Below are positions 18,098-29,205 of a stretch of 64,000 bases of DNA, piece after piece. The notes under the pieces were generated by a model. That model saw only the letters and a program-made list of their open reading frames with translations, was not told the origin of the DNA and ran no database searches. Position 1 is the stretch's first letter. The number at the start of each line of letters is the position of its first letter. The position numbers were made by a program, and so were the translations under genes. This stretch comes from Terriglobus roseus (GTDB taxonomy: Bacteria > Acidobacteriota > Terriglobia > Terriglobales > Acidobacteriaceae): assembly GCF_900105625.1 (NCBI RefSeq), contig NZ_FNSD01000001.1, positions 3,162,001 through 3,226,000 of the forward strand. The letters run 5' to 3'.

Positions 18098-19372
18098 ATG
18101 ATGATGCTTTACAGCCTTGCGGTGACCGTGGCGCTGGTGCTTAGCGCACCGGTGTGGGGCTGGCGCATGCTGCGGCAGGGCCGCTATCGGCAGGGTCTGC
18201 AGCAGCGTCTGGGTGATGTTCCGTTACGTCTGCGCGACTTTGTAAGGGACCGTCCCGTCCTCTGGCTGCACGCTGTCTCCGTGGGCGAGACACTGGCCGC
18301 GACCCGGCTCATCGCGGAGCTGGAAGCCGCCCTGCCGGGCTATGCCGTCGTCATCTCGACCACAACCCCCACCGGCCAGCAGGTCGCGCGCGAGCGCTTC
18401 GGCGTGGATCGTGTCTTCTTCTACCCATTGGATCTTGCCTTCGCCGTACGACCCTACCTGCGCGCCCTGCAGCCAAAGCTTGTCATCCTGATGGAGAGCG
18501 AGCTCTGGCCACGCATGCTGGTCGAGTGTGAACGCGCGGGCGTCCCCGTGGCCGTGGTGAACGCACGTGTCAGCGACCGATCCCTCCCGCGCTATATGCG
18601 TTTGCGAGTCCTCTGGAAGCCACTGCTCGGCAAGCTGTCGTTGCTGCTGGCGCAGAGCGATGAGGATGCGCGGCGCTGGCGCAGCATCGGCGCGCCCGCA
18701 GAGCGTGTGCTGTCTACCGGCAATCTCAAGTACGACATCCGTGCGGCCAACGAGACACCACTGACTGTCCTCGTCAGAAAGCATCTGCCCGCAGACGCGA
18801 GGGTGCTGGTTTGCGGCAGCACGCATGACGGTGAAGAGTCGTTGCTGCTCGATTGCTGGAAGTCCCTCTCGCAGAATCGAGTGATGATCCTTGCACCGCG
18901 CCATCCCGAGCGCACCGCCGCCGTCGAGCATCTGGCACGTGAGCGCGGACTTACGGCGACACCCCTAAGCCAATGGCGGCTTGCTGCTGCGACGACCGCG
19001 CCGGGCGCCGTCTTATTGGTCGATACCGTTGGCGAACTCTCGTCGCTCTACGCTCTCGCGACAATCGCCTTCGTCGGCGGGTCGCTCATCCCGCACGGTG
19101 GACAGAATCCCCTGGAGCCCGCGAGCTTTGGTGTGCCTGTTGTGATGGGACCGAGCTATGCGAACTTTCGCGGCATGGTCGATGCAATGGTGCAGGCGCA
19201 CGCAATTCGCATGGTCGCGCGGGAAGACCTCTGCGTGTCGCTGGAGCAACTGCTGACGACGCACGATGAGGAGCTCGGAGAGCGCGGGCGTCTCTTCGCC
19301 GCATCCATGACCGGAGCAACGGATCGCACCGTCGCTGCGCTGGTTCAGTTGCTCGAGCGGGGCGCAAGATGA
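18098..19372 (+). CDS. waaA: 3-deoxy-D-manno-octulosonic acid (Kdo) transferase
   Basis: The 424-residue GT30-family enzyme adds Kdo from CMP-Kdo to lipid IVA at the inner-membrane face. An N-terminal membrane anchor (MLYSLAVTVALVLSAPVWGW) is followed by WLHAVSVGE with the catalytic-type Glu64. Further family motifs are TTTPTGQQVARERFG, ESELWPRML and, C-terminally, FVGGSLIPHGGQNPLEPASF. The lpxK ATG overlaps its stop by four bases (ATGA). It is the first gene of a five-gene envelope operon and is divergent from the secreted-protein gene at 17150. Confidence 0.95.
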   Translation: MMMLYSLAVTVALVLSAPVWGWRMLRQGRYRQGLQQRLGDVPLRLRDFVRDRPVLWLHAVSVGETLAATRLIAELEAALPGYAVVISTTTPTGQQVARERFGVDRVFFYPLDLAFAVRPYLRALQPKLVILMESELWPRMLVECERAGVPVAVVNARVSDRSLPRYMRLRVLWKPLLGKLSLLLAQSDEDARRWRSIGAPAERVLSTGNLKYDIRAANETPLTVLVRKHLPADARVLVCGSTHDGEESLLLDCWKSLSQNRVMILAPRHPERTAAVEHLARERGLTATPLSQWRLAAATTAPGAVLLVDTVGELSSLYALATIAFVGGSLIPHGGQNPLEPASFGVPVVMGPSYANFRGMVDAMVQAHAIRMVAREDLCVSLEQLLTTHDEELGERGRLFAASMTGATDRTVAALVQLLERGAR

Positions 19373-20391
19373 AGCGTCCCATACTGCTGCCATTGGTTCC
19401 GCTCTACGCAGCCGGTGTCGCCTGGAAGTCAAGCGCCTTCGACCGGCATCCGGACCGTGCGCAGCGACTGCAGCAGCCGGTCATCAGCGTAGGCAGTCTT
19501 TCCGCTGGCGGAGCCGGGAAGACACCCTTCGTCATTGCACTCGGCGAGGCCCTGCGCCGCGCCGGTCATGGTATCGACGTCCTGTCGCGCGGCTACGGCC
19601 GCACGTCGGACGAGGTCCTGCGTGTGAATCCACTGGGCAGCGCGGCCGACTTTGGCGATGAGCCCTTGCTGATCGCCCAACGGCTCGGCTGCCCCGTCTA
19701 TGTCGCACGCAAACGCTTCGATGCCGGCCGATGGGCGGAGCGCGATCGACACCATCTTCGCGAGGACAAGACCCTCTCGCTGCACCTGCTCGATGACGGC
19801 TTTCAGCATCGGCAACTCGCACGCGCGGTCGACATCGTGCTCTTCACCGCGGACGATGCGCGCGACACGCTGCTGCCCGCAGGTGATCTGCGCGAGCCGT
19901 TGCGTGCGCTTCGCCGTGCGTCGATCATCGCTCTGCGCGCAGATGAGGCGGATGCATTGCGGCCGTTGCTGGATCGCTTCAACAAGGGAAAAGCAGTGCC
20001 GCCAATCTGGATCGCAGATCGGGCATTCGCCTTGGTTGAGGGGCAACCAGCGAGCAAGCCTTTGGCCTTCTGTGGCATCGCTCGCCCCGATGGCTTTCGT
20101 GCTTCGCTCACGAGCAAGCATGTCTCGCCCGCAGACTTTGTTGCACTGCGCGACCATCAGGCCTATGACGCGCCGACGATTCAAAGGCTCATCGCACGTG
20201 CGAAGGCATGCCATGCCAACGGCTTCGTAACGACAGCCAAGGATGCGGTGAAGCTCACGCCGCCCTTGCGTCGCTTGCTGGAGGATGTGGGGCCGCTGTC
20301 TGTCGGCGATGTGCGAGTCACGTTGCGGGATGAAACCCGGTGCGTCGCCGATCTGATCGCGCAGGTGCAGACATGGTGGTCGAAGTTATGA
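19369..20391 (+). CDS. lpxK: tetraacyldisaccharide 4'-kinase
   Basis: The 340-residue LpxK phosphorylates the 4' position of the lipid A precursor disaccharide. The P-loop is GSLSAGGAGKTP at residues 42-53. The family motifs VLSRGYGR, DDGFQHRQLARAVDIVLF and FVTTAKDAVKL are in order. A hydrophobic N-terminus (PILLPLVPLYAAGVAW) fits membrane association. The ATG overlaps waaA's stop by four bases, and its own TGA overlaps the next ATG in the same way. Confidence 0.96.
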   Translation: MKRPILLPLVPLYAAGVAWKSSAFDRHPDRAQRLQQPVISVGSLSAGGAGKTPFVIALGEALRRAGHGIDVLSRGYGRTSDEVLRVNPLGSAADFGDEPLLIAQRLGCPVYVARKRFDAGRWAERDRHHLREDKTLSLHLLDDGFQHRQLARAVDIVLFTADDARDTLLPAGDLREPLRALRRASIIALRADEADALRPLLDRFNKGKAVPPIWIADRAFALVEGQPASKPLAFCGIARPDGFRASLTSKHVSPADFVALRDHQAYDAPTIQRLIARAKACHANGFVTTAKDAVKLTPPLRRLLEDVGPLSVGDVRVTLRDETRCVADLIAQVQTWWSKL

Positions 20392-21449
20392 GCGAGCCTA
20401 TGCGCATCCTGATCGTCCGCGTTGGTGCGATGGGCGATGTACTGCATGCCATGCCTGCTGTTGCTGCATTGCGCAAAGCAGTGCCCGATGCGGAGATTGG
20501 CTGGGCGATTGAGCCGAAGTGGTCACCGCTATTACGCGCAGGGGAGGATGCTCTGCCATCCTCCCCCGCGATGCCGCTGGTGGACCGTGTGCATCTTGTG
20601 GCGACGAAGGAGTGGTCGAAGAAGCCGTTCTCATTGGCCACGCTGCGCAGTGTGCTCGCGCTGCGCCGGGAACTGCGTGCGCGGCACTACGACATCGCCA
20701 TCGATCTGCAGGGCTCCATCCGCTCGTCGGTGATTGCACGCATGAGTGGTGCGCGCCGCGTCGTAGGCAGTGCCACCACACGCGAGTCGCAGGCACGCTG
20801 GCTCTACAGCCAGAGCGTGGGCCTGCAACGCGCCCATGTGGTGGAGCAGGCAGCGGAGATCGTCTCTGCCGTACTGGAATCGCCGGTCAAATCTGCCATC
20901 GCGCCGCTACCCATCGATCCGGCAGCAGAGCAGTGGTGCCACGATCTCCTGCGAGATCGCCCTCACGGCCCCTTGGTGGTGTTAGCTCCTACCGCCGGAT
21001 GGGGTGCCAAGGAGTGGCCCGCCGAGCGATACCGTGCTGTCGCGCAGGCGCTCGCCGCGCGGGGATGCACGGTGCTTGTGAACGCGTCGCCCGTTGGTAT
21101 CGATGCCGTGGCGGATCTCGTCGTTGCGGGCAGCAATGGCGCAGCATCGGCGGTGGCCTGCACGCTGCCGCAACTCACGTCGCTGCTTCGCCACACATCG
21201 GTACTCATCGCAGGTGACTCCGGCCCGCTGCATCTCGCGGCCGCGCTGCGCGTGCCCGTCGTCAGCATCTTCGGACCGACCGACCCAGTGCGGACCGGGC
21301 CATGGGGATCGCCCTCGCGTGTCCTGCGCCATGCCACCAGCATCACCGACCATCGACGTCATCGCGAGCCCGAGGCCGGGCTGTTGCAGATCGGTGTCGA
21401 ACAGGTTGTGAGTGCCGCAGAAAGCCTTCTGCTGCTCGCGCGTGGATAA
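20388..21449 (+). CDS. lipopolysaccharide heptosyltransferase (GT9)
   Basis: The 353-residue protein is a GT9 ADP-heptose:LPS heptosyltransferase, either WaaC- or WaaF-like. It begins MRILIVRVGAMGDVLHAMPA and carries YDIAIDLQGSIRSSVIARMS, APTAGWGAKEWPAERY and the nucleotide-binding motif IAGDSGPLHLAAALRVPVVS. The ATG at 20388 overlaps lpxK's TGA by four bases, which matches the operon pattern better than the in-frame ATG at 20373. It presumably adds the first inner-core heptose to Kdo-lipid A. Confidence 0.92.
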   Translation: MSEPMRILIVRVGAMGDVLHAMPAVAALRKAVPDAEIGWAIEPKWSPLLRAGEDALPSSPAMPLVDRVHLVATKEWSKKPFSLATLRSVLALRRELRARHYDIAIDLQGSIRSSVIARMSGARRVVGSATTRESQARWLYSQSVGLQRAHVVEQAAEIVSAVLESPVKSAIAPLPIDPAAEQWCHDLLRDRPHGPLVVLAPTAGWGAKEWPAERYRAVAQALAARGCTVLVNASPVGIDAVADLVVAGSNGAASAVACTLPQLTSLLRHTSVLIAGDSGPLHLAAALRVPVVSIFGPTDPVRTGPWGSPSRVLRHATSITDHRRHREPEAGLLQIGVEQVVSAAESLLLLARG

Positions 21450-24780: not shown

Positions 24781-25051
24781 GGTCAGCTCCTTTGCGCGCG
24801 GGGTGGGGCCGCTGGCGCAGGTTCCCCCAGTAATTAGAGCGAAGTCCACAGGCGTCACTTCGTGGAAATACGACCGCAGTGCCGCGTTGGTTACTGGCCG
24901 TGCGAGCACCTTTTTGAACTCAACTCACCCGAAAGGGCTATTCAGCGCGGCCGTCCACTATGCAACTTAGTGGGTCTTCAGGGACTCAAAGTACTAAATC
25001 ACGTGAAACGCGGGCCTTCGAGGCATGCCTCACCACTACCAAAGGAAATAC

Positions 25052-25885
25052 ATGACTCGTTCGCTCTCGCTCGCAGCACTGCTCGCATTCGCACCGATCC
25101 TCACGGCCCAGTCTGTTCCTGCGTCACCCTCCATGACCCCACTCCAGGTGGCGTCGGTGGAGACGCCTTCGCTCCTGCCGACCGAGGCTGGTATGTCTTC
25201 CAGCAACCTGCCCGATGCGCCCAGCGCCGTGGCTGCTATGGCCGCTGAACCAATGGAAGCCGCAGCACCTGCGTTTGATTTTGGCCAGGCACCCTCCGGC
25301 GTAGGCACTGGCGCGGTTGCACCCCGATTCTCGACCATCATTCTGCCGGGTCAGACCGCAGTGCCACTGCATGGCATGGAGAAGGTCGTCTACGGTCTGC
25401 ACGATTCGTTCAACCTGACGCAGCTTGCCGGCATCACCATCTCCGCAGGCTGGTCGCAGCTGATTGACTCGCAGCCGCACTACGGTCGGGACGCGGAAGC
25501 CTTTGGCAAGCGGGAAGGTGTTGCAGCCCTTCGCAGCACCGTGCAAACCCTGGCAACCGACGCAGTGTTCTCGCCCATGTTTCACGATGACCCTCGGTAT
25601 TACGCGCTCGGCGACGGCCATAGCTTTGTTAACCGCGTCGTCTATGCGGCATCGCGCGTTGTGGTCACGCGGTCGTCGTACAGCATGAAGAACAAGATCA
25701 ATGTGCCACTGCTGCTGGGCTACGGTTCGGCTGCCGGTCTCAACAATCTCTACTACCCGGATGGAGATCGTGGCGGCAAGAACACCATGGAGAACTGGGG
25801 CACGTCGCTGGTTGGCGCCGCTCTCGGCTTTGAAGTCAGCGAGTTTCTCGATGACGCGCTGAAGATGGTTCACCTGCGTAAGTAG
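25052..25885 (+). CDS. secreted protein with SNLPDAPSA motif
   Basis: The 277-residue product has a signal peptide (TRSLSLAALLAFAPILTAQS). A disordered Pro/Ala-rich stretch follows with SNLPDAPSA, a motif frequently seen in acidobacterial exported proteins. The C-terminal two-thirds contain hydrophobic and Gly-rich segments (LAGITISAGWSQLIDSQPHY, DAVFSPMFHDDPRYYALGDG, NWGTSLVGAALGFEVSEFLD). AAAGGA lies 6 bases before the ATG. It lies upstream of the radical SAM gene on the same strand, separated by a terminator. Function unknown. Confidence 0.78.
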   Translation: MTRSLSLAALLAFAPILTAQSVPASPSMTPLQVASVETPSLLPTEAGMSSSNLPDAPSAVAAMAAEPMEAAAPAFDFGQAPSGVGTGAVAPRFSTIILPGQTAVPLHGMEKVVYGLHDSFNLTQLAGITISAGWSQLIDSQPHYGRDAEAFGKREGVAALRSTVQTLATDAVFSPMFHDDPRYYALGDGHSFVNRVVYAASRVVVTRSSYSMKNKINVPLLLGYGSAAGLNNLYYPDGDRGGKNTMENWGTSLVGAALGFEVSEFLDDALKMVHLRK

Positions 25886-25941: not shown

Positions 25942-26191
25942 GCTTCGAAGGAAGGGCGCAGATTCCCGTTCGCTGCTCGTCCTCGCACTTCGCTGCGCTA
26001 TGTTGCGGTTCGGTAAATCCCCCTGCCCAATCAGAGCCTGTGCAGTTAGCCTCGAGGAGGCTCAAACCGCTGTAACTGTGCGGGTTCGCCGATAAGATTA
26101 GAGACGTACCAGTGCACCGGAGCATCCTAATCTCGTCATAGGAAGCGTTCGGAATCCACCGTACGCAGCACCATCATTTTCAGGAGAAGCA

Positions 26192-28339
26192 ATGGCCAAG
26201 GCATCGAAGCTCGCAGAAAAGTCCCTCACACTCGTCGCAAAGGCAGGTTGGGCGGTGTTTGAAAAGCTGAACGCGTTCAGCCCAAACGCCTCATTCACGC
26301 CGCGCTGGTCGGACAAGCCCCTGCTCAAGAGCTACCAGAAGGAGAAGCCGCCCCTCGGCTGGCCGCGTACCACTGACTCTCTTTGCCCGCGTTGCGTTCC
26401 CGAGATCCGTCAGCAGATCATCGACGGCAAGCTCCCCCACGAGATCCTGCTGAACGAGAAGGTCGGCGAGATCAAGGCGCAGATCATCGAGCGCGACGGT
26501 CAGATCCTGATGGTGAAGGACTGCCCGATTCACGGCCACTTCGAAGACGTTATGTCCATCGATCCGCCGATGATGCAGCACCTGGAAGAAGTCTTCCCCG
26601 GCCGCGACATCCGCGCGCACAACGATGAGAAGCTGCACAACCACGGCACGTCGACTGTTACCCACGGCCGCGGTTCGGTTCTCACGATCGATCTGACCAA
26701 CCGTTGCAACATGATGTGCGATCCCTGCTTCATGGACGCGAACCAGGTCGGCTTCGTTCACGAACTGACATGGGACGAGATCAAGACCATGCTGGACAAC
26801 GCCGTCCAGATCAAGCCCAAGCGCCAGATGTCCGTGCAGTTCTCCGGTGGTGAGCCGACGCTGAGCCCGTACTTCCTGGATGCTGTCGCTTACGCCCGTA
26901 AGGTCGGTTACACCTCCGTGCAGGCTGCGACCAACGGCATCGAGTTCGCCAAGAGCAAGGAATTCGCAAAGGCAGCGGCAGAAGCCGGTCTGCGTTACGC
27001 CTACCTGCAGTTCGACGGCATCGGCAACGCAGCCAACAGCCACCGCAAGGTCGGCAACTCGTTCGACGTGAAGCTGCAGGCCATTCACAATCTGCACGAG
27101 GCCGGCGTCGACATCGTTCCCGTCACCTGCATCATCAACGGCATCAACAACGAGCAGGTTGGCCGCATCATCGAGTTCGCGCTCGACAACCCGAAGAAGA
27201 TCAACTTCCTCTCGTTCCAGCCGGTCTCCTTCACGGGCCGCGATGAGGCTGTCAGCGATGAGCGCCGCATGGCGCAGCGCTACACCCTGAGCCACCTGGC
27301 ACACGACGTCAAGACGCAGACTGGCCTCGGCGAGTCCACGCGCGACTGGTTCCCCATCTCGTTCATGTCGACGTTCTCCGACTGGGCCGATCTGGTTCAC
27401 GGACCGGATCACGACTGGGGCCAGCTCTCCTGCGGTTGCCACCCGAACTGCGGTATCGGCATGGCCCTGATGATCGATAAGGAAACCAAGGAAGCCGTTC
27501 CCGTCACCGCATTCCTCAACGCCGATCGTCTGGCGAAGGACGTTGCGAAGGTGAACGACGCTGCCCGCGGCAAGTTCCTCTCGATCCTGGGTGTGTCGCT
27601 TGCGCTGCTGCGCAATTACGATCCGTCCAAGGCACCGACCCACTTCAAGATCAAGGATCTGCTCCTGAAGTTCGACAAGTGCTTCGGCGCCACCGGCCGT
27701 AACTACGGCAAGGTGACTGCAGACCGCACCATGGAAGACATCAAGATGCGCCGCGCGGATCGTTGGAACTTCCTCTTCATCGCCGGCATGTGGTTCCAGG
27801 ATCTGTTCAACTACGACTTCCGTCGCACCGAGCAGTGCATCATCCCGTACGCCACGCAGGAAGGTGAGATCAGCTTCTGCGCGTACAACACGGGCGTTGG
27901 CTGGCGCAACATCATCGAGAAGATGCACATGACGTCGTCCCTCACCAAGTGGTACGAGGAGCACGGCCGTCACGAGATCTTCGCCGGTGGCAAGAAGGTT
28001 TCGATCGAGAAACAGGAGAAGTACGACCTGGTTCTGAACGAGGCGCACGTCAACTCGGCTGCAAACGACACCTTCGACAAGAGCGGTATCGCCAAGAATG
28101 CGCGCGAAGAGAAGATCCGCGCACGCGACGCGAAGCTGAAGCAGGATGCAGAGAACGCCCGCATGGCGAAGCTCTACCGCAAGGAAATCCTGAAGGAACC
28201 CGAGACCCCCGGCGGCTTCGTCGCCATCGGCGAGATCGGTGGACTCGGCGGCATCAAGCCAGCAGCGCCCGCTCCGGCAGCTTCGAACGTCGAAGTCGTC
28301 AACATGATCAACAAGGACGAGCTCGTCGCAGGCGACTAG
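26192..28339 (+). CDS. radical SAM protein, tetraether/membrane-spanning lipid synthase (Tes)-like
   Basis: The 715-residue protein has the radical SAM cluster motif in LTNRCNMMCDPCF (C172, C176, C179) and GGEPT at 219-223. Extra metal sites match archaeal Tes: an N-terminal CPRC pair (C65, C68) followed by CPIHGHFED (C111), a central SCGCHPNC (C414, C416, C420), and C-terminal C497, RTEQCIIPYATQEG (C549) and SFCAYNTG (C563). Tes joins alkyl chains tail to tail to make membrane-spanning lipids. Acidobacteriota make iso-diabolic acid, so that coupling is the best guess; it is unproven. GGAG lies 6 bases before the ATG. The last 100 residues are a charged helical and Ala/Pro tail. Confidence 0.85.
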   Translation: MAKASKLAEKSLTLVAKAGWAVFEKLNAFSPNASFTPRWSDKPLLKSYQKEKPPLGWPRTTDSLCPRCVPEIRQQIIDGKLPHEILLNEKVGEIKAQIIERDGQILMVKDCPIHGHFEDVMSIDPPMMQHLEEVFPGRDIRAHNDEKLHNHGTSTVTHGRGSVLTIDLTNRCNMMCDPCFMDANQVGFVHELTWDEIKTMLDNAVQIKPKRQMSVQFSGGEPTLSPYFLDAVAYARKVGYTSVQAATNGIEFAKSKEFAKAAAEAGLRYAYLQFDGIGNAANSHRKVGNSFDVKLQAIHNLHEAGVDIVPVTCIINGINNEQVGRIIEFALDNPKKINFLSFQPVSFTGRDEAVSDERRMAQRYTLSHLAHDVKTQTGLGESTRDWFPISFMSTFSDWADLVHGPDHDWGQLSCGCHPNCGIGMALMIDKETKEAVPVTAFLNADRLAKDVAKVNDAARGKFLSILGVSLALLRNYDPSKAPTHFKIKDLLLKFDKCFGATGRNYGKVTADRTMEDIKMRRADRWNFLFIAGMWFQDLFNYDFRRTEQCIIPYATQEGEISFCAYNTGVGWRNIIEKMHMTSSLTKWYEEHGRHEIFAGGKKVSIEKQEKYDLVLNEAHVNSAANDTFDKSGIAKNAREEKIRARDAKLKQDAENARMAKLYRKEILKEPETPGGFVAIGEIGGLGGIKPAAPAPAASNVEVVNMINKDELVAGD

Positions 28340-28401: not shown

Positions 28402-29205
28402 TCACTTGATCAACTGGGAATACACGCGCTCCAGCGCCACCGGGCTTACGCTCACCTTGCCGCGGAAGGGATTGTCCAGTGTCGCGATCAGGAAGATCAT
28501 CAGACCCAGCAGGCCGCTCATCAATGCCGTCATCCAGACGTGCATGCTGAAGCTGCGCAGGTCAAAGAACATGGTCGTCGTAATCGAGACAAGCGCGCCG
28601 AGGATGACCATCCACCACATGGAGCGCGGCAGTGAGGTCGTCACGCTGTCCAGCCGCGCGCGGCGGCTTTCGACCAGTTCGTTGAACTGGTGATAACTCT
28701 CCTGATAGATGACCTGCTGGCCAGACGTCTGCGGCGAATACTGCAGCATGTGCTCCTGCAGGTGATCGATAAAGACGCCGGACCCACTCGGCACAAGTCC
28801 CCTGCGCTGCTGCGGCCAGCTATGGTCGATGACTTCAAGAACATAGTCCTTCAAATCCTGACGAAGCTCGGAACGAACCGGCTCGGGATAGCTGCTGACA
28901 TCGCGGTAGAGCGACGCAACGTTTTGCGCCTCGTGGTCGACCTTGTCCTGAATGGCGGAGTAGTTGTTCCATGTGCCAATGGCGACCAGGCCCAGCGTCA
29001 CGCCGTAGAAGACAGTGATCGCCGCGAGAAAGTAACCGACGATGTCATTGTGCGAGTGATCCTCGCGATGCACGCGCTTCACAAAGTCGCGTGACAGGTA
29101 AGTGCCGAGGACGCCGAAAAGAACAAAGGCAACTGTGCAAAGAACTCCAAAAAGCCAGTTGGGAATGCTGTAAATCCAGTAAAGCGTCATTTGAAAAAGA
29201 CTCAT
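28402..29205 (-). CDS. DUF4239 (bestrophin-like) membrane protein
   Basis: The 267 residues hold four hydrophobic helices: two N-terminal (WLFGVLCTVAFVLFGVLGTY, FLAAITVFYGVTLGLVAIGT) and two C-terminal (MWWMVILGALVSITTTMFF, TALMSGLLGLMIFLIATLDN). Between them is a soluble helical section containing EAQNVASLYRDVSSYPEPVR. This layout and the NNYSAIQDKVDHEA-type motif are those of DUF4239 proteins, regarded as bestrophin-like channels. Ion transport is a family-level inference. Confidence 0.85.
   Translation of the reverse strand: MSLFQMTLYWIYSIPNWLFGVLCTVAFVLFGVLGTYLSRDFVKRVHREDHSHNDIVGYFLAAITVFYGVTLGLVAIGTWNNYSAIQDKVDHEAQNVASLYRDVSSYPEPVRSELRQDLKDYVLEVIDHSWPQQRRGLVPSGSGVFIDHLQEHMLQYSPQTSGQQVIYQESYHQFNELVESRRARLDSVTTSLPRSMWWMVILGALVSITTTMFFDLRSFSMHVWMTALMSGLLGLMIFLIATLDNPFRGKVSVSPVALERVYSQLIK

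Follow-up and report, generated by a model that had tools for sequence, protein, structure and literature searches.

The 64,000-nucleotide stretch of Terriglobus roseus DNA analysed here (the window; RefSeq assembly GCF_900105625.1, contig NZ_FNSD01000001.1, positions 3,162,001 to 3,226,000, forward strand) encodes a radical S-adenosylmethionine (SAM) protein related to the archaeal tetraether synthase Tes (GDGT-MAS), exemplified by MjTes (MJ0619; PDB 7TOL, 7TOM). When compared with 18950 NCBIfam models, the protein finds its best match in the Tes profile (NF045702; 317.8 bits), followed at 205 bits by that of the radical SAM (seleno)protein TrsS, whose own cut-off of 490 lies far above this score. 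It is about 30% identical to MjTes, and its predicted fold matches 7TOL and 7TOM along the whole length. These observations bear out the initial annotation, which had read the gene as a Tes-type radical SAM enzyme in a bacterium: no unrelated radical SAM class supplies the best profile match, the active-site parts are conserved, and the motifs it quoted are all present (Table 1).

Table 1. Features of the Tes-type gene and its surroundings, in window positions
Feature	Position	Strand	Remarks
LpxK and family 9 glycosyltransferase genes	19369-21449		Overlapping
Upstream neighbour	25025-25885		No Pfam match
Likely ribosome-binding site, AGGAG	26182..26186	+	Spacer of 5 nt to the ATG; read directly
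Tes-type radical SAM protein	26192..28339	+	715 aa; single open reading frame ending in a stop
N-terminal helix	26195..26275	+	Residues 2-28, within an extension absent from MjTes
Antisense open reading frame	26291-28048		Overlaps the Tes-type gene
Rubredoxin-like site	26384..26533	+	C65, C68, C111, H114; ligand roles by homology to MjTes C9, C12, C33, H36
Conserved HxHG(S/T)S...GRG loop	26609..26677	+	Residues 140-162; replaces the N-terminal [Fe4S4] motif
Radical SAM cluster, CX3CX2C	26705..26728	+	C172, C176, C179; invariant in 60/60 rows
SAM-closing loop	27218..27241	+	Q343, S346, R350; counterparts of MjTes Q268, S271, R275
C414, C416, C420	27431..27451	+	C414 and C416 extra relative to MjTes; C420 a C-cluster ligand by homology
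M533, C549, Y553, C563	27788..27880	+	Counterparts of Met439, two C-cluster Cys and Tyr459
C-terminal tail	27977..28336	+	Residues 596-715, outside the Tes-aligned part
Bestrophin-like domain protein	28402-29205	-	Directly downstream, opposite strand

Retention of the Tes active site

Four metal sites have been described in MjTes, namely a rubredoxin-like iron, an N-terminal surface [Fe4S4] cluster, the radical SAM cluster and a C-terminal [Fe4S4] cluster (PMC9433317). The first is liganded by C9, C12, C33 and H36 (Lloyd 2022, PMC9433317) and the second by C73, C77, C80 and a His, while the C-terminal cluster, with its labile Met439, carries the substrate carbon (PMC9433317). In the T. roseus protein, the zinc ribbon PF23545 matches residues 58-122, and the C-terminal [Fe4S4] cluster is predicted to be held by C420, C549 and C563 with M533, the MjTes ligand cysteines being taken from the alignment. 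An alignment of 60 rows, made up of the query plus 59 of the 80 named loci, shows the rubredoxin-like, radical SAM and C-cluster ligands, M533 and the SAM-closing loop to be invariant. This does not extend to Y553. Deviations outside or alongside that set are an Asn at the Tyr position in two loci (L108, L109), a gap at H114 in L086, and CPNCGG at the place of the CPxHG seen in other rows in L029. As for the two additional cysteines, Cys416 is invariant and Cys414 nearly so in these rows, but L066 carries a Ser at 416 and L132 a Val at 414. A Cys at the 416 position is absent in MjTes and occurs in nine of 13 canonical acidobacterial copies.

Those canonical acidobacterial Tes homologues (L032-L043, L053) belong to the same family as the variant typified by the query, their Tes-profile scores being 487-619 bits. 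The variant reaches maxima of 333 bits in the family sample described below, 342 in genome G025 and 350 in Minicystis rosea. Likewise, identity to the MjTes fragment is 29.5-32.8% in the variant subfamily versus 36.8-47.7% in canonical acidobacterial Tes.

A subfamily without the N-terminal cluster motif

Neither the query nor any other subfamily row of two sets (0 of 50 and 0 of 75) has the N-terminal [Fe4S4] motif, CPxxCGxCxxH; both sets include the query, and they have some contigs in common (e.g., those of L073 and L082). The motif is present in 13 of 13 canonical acidobacterial Tes, in all nine of the more distant paralogues and in MjTes. The motif and length counts leave out six partial loci (L085, L103, L105, L113, L115, L117); the alignment against canonical Tes leaves out L001 (the own locus), L044, L046, L047, L054, L060, L061 and L081, each being an own copy, a duplicate or a partial sequence, and L002 and L052 gave no match in the search that fed it. 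The initial annotation had suggested three further metal sites beyond the radical SAM cluster, but the N-cluster ligands are missing; to judge from the sequences, the subfamily would make do with a pair of [Fe4S4] clusters plus the rubredoxin-like iron, as against the four sites of MjTes. This Tes variant is real and well conserved, and no description of its N-terminal cluster loss was found in the open-licence literature searched.

The subfamily also departs from canonical Tes in length. Between the rubredoxin knuckles (C68 to C111) the query has 42 residues, as does the subfamily (with up to 48), as opposed to 20 in canonical Tes; after the last C-cluster Cys the subfamily medians are 134 or 87 in the two row sets versus 31; and before the first Cys they are 83 or 90 versus 52, these last being upper bounds from stop-to-stop frames. 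The first Cys is residue 65 in the query and residue 9 in MjTes. Thus, the ends suggested to be bacterial additions are genuine extensions, but they are additions of the subfamily, the ends of canonical bacterial Tes being shorter. The N-terminal helix, with a moderate hydrophobic moment (0.46 over residues 1-18), might contact the membrane. At the other end, the last 41 residues (675-715) have a predicted local distance difference test score (pLDDT) below 50.

Descent and distribution

A 71-row tree, built by a quick method with nine paralogues as the root, unites the 48 subfamily rows in a single clade (SH-aLRT 100) within a grade of canonical Tes. The branch leading to this clade is long (1.97), a long-branch warning attaches to L043, and we are unsure of the exact canonical sister. 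A single loss of the N-terminal cluster motif would be the simplest account, because all the canonical rows and paralogues in the tree set retain it. Two genes from metagenome-assembled genomes (MAGs) labelled Rhodanobacteraceae (L137, L142) are 86-88% identical to the query and adjoin it in the tree; their labels probably reflect binning errors or a recent transfer. The MAG genes L120 (labelled Gemmatimonadota) and L124 (Latescibacterota) are very close to each other, with end branches of 0.025 and 0.044, and at least one of these labels is doubtful.

Among 297 Acidobacteriota genomes, 187 hold a match to the query at E <= 1e-10, and the variant is found in 143, from 40 family groups; a match above the Tes cut-off occurs in 34, of which 12 also have the variant. 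A genome counted as having the variant when its match to the query reached E <= 1e-190 and as having canonical Tes when its Tes-profile match reached E <= 1e-125, the motifs not being read individually, and 22 genomes with weaker matches were assigned to neither, so that likely fragments (e.g., in G207 and G290) were missed. Within the family group of T. roseus, a first sample has the variant in all 32 genomes, its own included, with canonical Tes also in three. In a wider sample of this family, 105 of 120 genomes have a Tes profile match (E <= 1e-25), 15 of the 120 exceed the cut-off, and by manual count 90 fall in the variant range (308-333 bits, frame of at least 640 aa). The T. roseus genome itself has one Tes-profile match. 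Two variant copies coexist in several genomes, among them G059 (92% and 87% identity to the query), G108 (66% and 54%) and G226 (64% and 60%).

A scan of named species extends the subfamily to other phylum labels: among the best 80 of 580 confirmed stretches, 67 are labelled acidobacterial, and the other 13 comprise Planctomycetota, KSB1, Gemmatimonadota, five 'Deltaproteobacteria', Minicystis rosea, Latescibacterota, Calditrichaeota and the two Rhodanobacteraceae. In the myxobacterium Minicystis rosea (DSM 24000), the Tes profile finds a single match at E <= 1e-25, which is below the cut-off and represents the variant.

A link between oxygen and the cluster loss was also considered, using COX3 (PF00510, E <= 1e-15) across the 297 genomes. 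The marker is present in 75 of 131 variant-only and six of 22 canonical-only genomes, in eight of the 12 that combine the two forms and in 67 of the 132 assigned to neither class; the variant-only versus canonical-only comparison gives a Fisher p of 0.011, which ignores kinship, and at this threshold the marker missed the T. roseus genome. We draw no conclusion from it.

Gene neighbourhood

No conserved operon was found across 131 stretches, L001-L031 being covered with 1.5 kb flanks only. The most widely shared neighbour is the upstream gene, which recurs in 17 of the 131, the window included. Lipopolysaccharide genes, in which LpxK overlaps a glycosyltransferase of the heptosyltransferase type, lie about 5 kb upstream. 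The antisense frame appears to be a mechanical shadow of the Tes-type gene.

A candidate synthase of iso-diabolic acid

Iso-diabolic acid, which occurs in soil Acidobacteriota as an unusual fatty acid that spans the membrane, is the likely building block of branched glycerol dialkyl glycerol tetraethers (brGDGTs), sediment lipids that are read for past temperature and pH. Zeng 2022 reported 456 bacterial Tes homologues and listed as candidates for brGDGT synthesis those of Edaphobacter aggregans (32% identity, E 4e-61 to an archaeal query), Koribacter (42%) and Solibacter (40%) (PMC8941075), and Halamka 2022 proposed one or both Solibacter homologues for this role (PMC10087280). Since brGDGT synthesis requires the same tail coupling, these proposals cover the idea of an acidobacterial Tes homologue as a tail coupler, which is already in print as an unproven one. 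Hence, the role of iso-diabolic acid synthase that the initial annotation proposed for the gene survives as an inferred one, but it is not new as an idea. Set beside the identity ranges given above, these percentages, obtained with queries that may differ from ours, offer a lead: the E. aggregans homologue, at 32%, would belong to the variant and so have no N motif, and the Koribacter and Solibacter homologues, at 40-42%, would be canonical.

The T. roseus protein is a good candidate for the iso-diabolic acid synthase, and we consider it likely that it does make this acid, as a Tes-fold enzyme that builds membrane-spanning lipids. As we infer its substrate, chemistry and product, two phospholipids would be bound, by homology to MjTes, with their tails inside a hydrophobic pocket. 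In one iso-C15:0 chain, a SAM-derived radical would abstract a terminal methyl hydrogen, and a sulfur of the C-terminal [Fe4S4] cluster would then carry the carbon for a time. A second round would couple this carbon to the other chain, again at its terminal methyl, giving 13,16-dimethyl octacosanedioic (iso-diabolic) acid still bound to glycerol. This coupling joins terminal methyl carbons, as does the Tes reaction. The proposal is also consistent with the wide presence of the variant in its own family, with no canonical Tes alongside in 29 of the 32 genomes of the first sample, and with the 26.8-49.2% of iso-diabolic acid given for five strains in a 2026 Terriglobales species description (PMC12935467).

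Several points weigh against this assignment. The query fails the curated Tes cut-off of 450 bits, and with the N-cluster motif gone its activity might differ. As the MjTes variants M439A, Y459F and Y459L stay active (PMC9433317), the conservation of Met and Tyr says little. A 2025 survey describes the activity of bacterial Tes homologues as unconfirmed (PMC11868695). In the wider family sample the variant is not universal: 15 of the 120 genomes, including six of the 88 good-quality ones, have no Tes match at 1e-25, and G351 and G385 have a canonical match alone. Several family members hold weaker Tes-like paralogues (e.g., G080 and G163), which means that a genome can offer candidates besides the variant. 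Lastly, the coupling in Acidobacteriota may be done by Mss, the enzyme to which this step is attributed in Bacillota. Mss, from Bacillota and other bacteria, has been proposed to couple iso-C15 tails into iso-diabolic acid, and its models have been superposed on the Tes structure (PMC13274423), though the 2025 survey counts it separately from bacterial Tes (PMC11868695). A set of Tes-like acidobacterial paralogues (L048-L051, L055-L059) has CPxxCGxCxxH and is without several C-cluster residues. At a guess, Mss-type enzymes may lie among these.

The alternative that survives best, unlikely as we judge it, is that another enzyme, such as Mss, makes iso-diabolic acid while the Tes variant applies the same radical chemistry to lipid tails for another product, such as interchain cross-links like those of the archaeal Gms, ring closure or the coupling of other chains. 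Radical SAM lipid enzymes are diverse, as the Gms literature indicates, and Solibacter usitatus, with two Tes homologues, makes brGDGTs with iso-diabolic acid undetectable (PMC10087280). Where a genome has two subfamily copies, these may have divided roles between them, and the family members that have no variant or have other paralogues point the same way. The agreement with Tes in the catalytic site and whole-length fold, and the 29 family genomes with no canonical Tes beside the variant, argue instead for the synthesis of iso-diabolic acid by the variant.

It is improbable that ether lipid coupling or brGDGT finishing, rather than ester-linked iso-diabolic acid, is its main role, even though ether lipids are the MjTes substrate (PMC9433317) and a diether condensation route has been proposed for S. 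usitatus (PMC10087280). Acid methanolysis releases iso-diabolic acid as a major fatty acid from the five Terriglobales strains (PMC12935467), and the MjTes pocket also contained density read as phosphatidic acid (PMC9433317). Further, DUF2229 has no match in the T. roseus genome, in a search for ether formation that covered this domain only and was positive in four of 14 control genomes (including Thermotoga maritima); this absence fits an ester- rather than an ether-linked product.

Still less probable is a non-lipid substrate, as in TrsS-type or pterin-type relatives. TrsS is the second profile but scores 112 bits below Tes, and MJ0619, originally described as a methanopterin biosynthesis methylase according to a reference title in the structural report, itself proved to be Tes (PMC9433317). 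Moreover, the C-cluster Cys, Met and SAM loop of the query are Tes-like, whereas the nine paralogues lack several C-cluster residues. That the motif loss, which removes an entire metal site, marks an enzyme of little or no activity is very hard to credit, given that the remaining ligands are all invariant across the 60 rows and that the gene is retained in 143 of the 297 phylum genomes.

Implications for the Tes family

Tentatively, and with close to even expectations either way, we propose that the variant is a separate subfamily spanning Acidobacteriota and several other phylum labels, derived from canonical Tes by one loss of the surface N-cluster. Tail coupling would rely on a pair of [Fe4S4] clusters and a single iron, perhaps with help from Cys414 and Cys416, and in Acidobacteriaceae-type bacteria the variant would serve as the iso-diabolic acid synthase. 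Were this true, coupling could dispense with the N-cluster. The authors of the MjTes structure described the roles of the remaining metallocofactors as not clear (PMC9433317), and this question can be put to the test in a subfamily that naturally does without one of them. For surveys, the absence of CPxxCGxCxxH with HxHG...GRG in its stead provides a signature that separates the variant from canonical Tes. The subfamily also offers a sharply defined gene for the question of the iso-diabolic acid synthase in Acidobacteriota.
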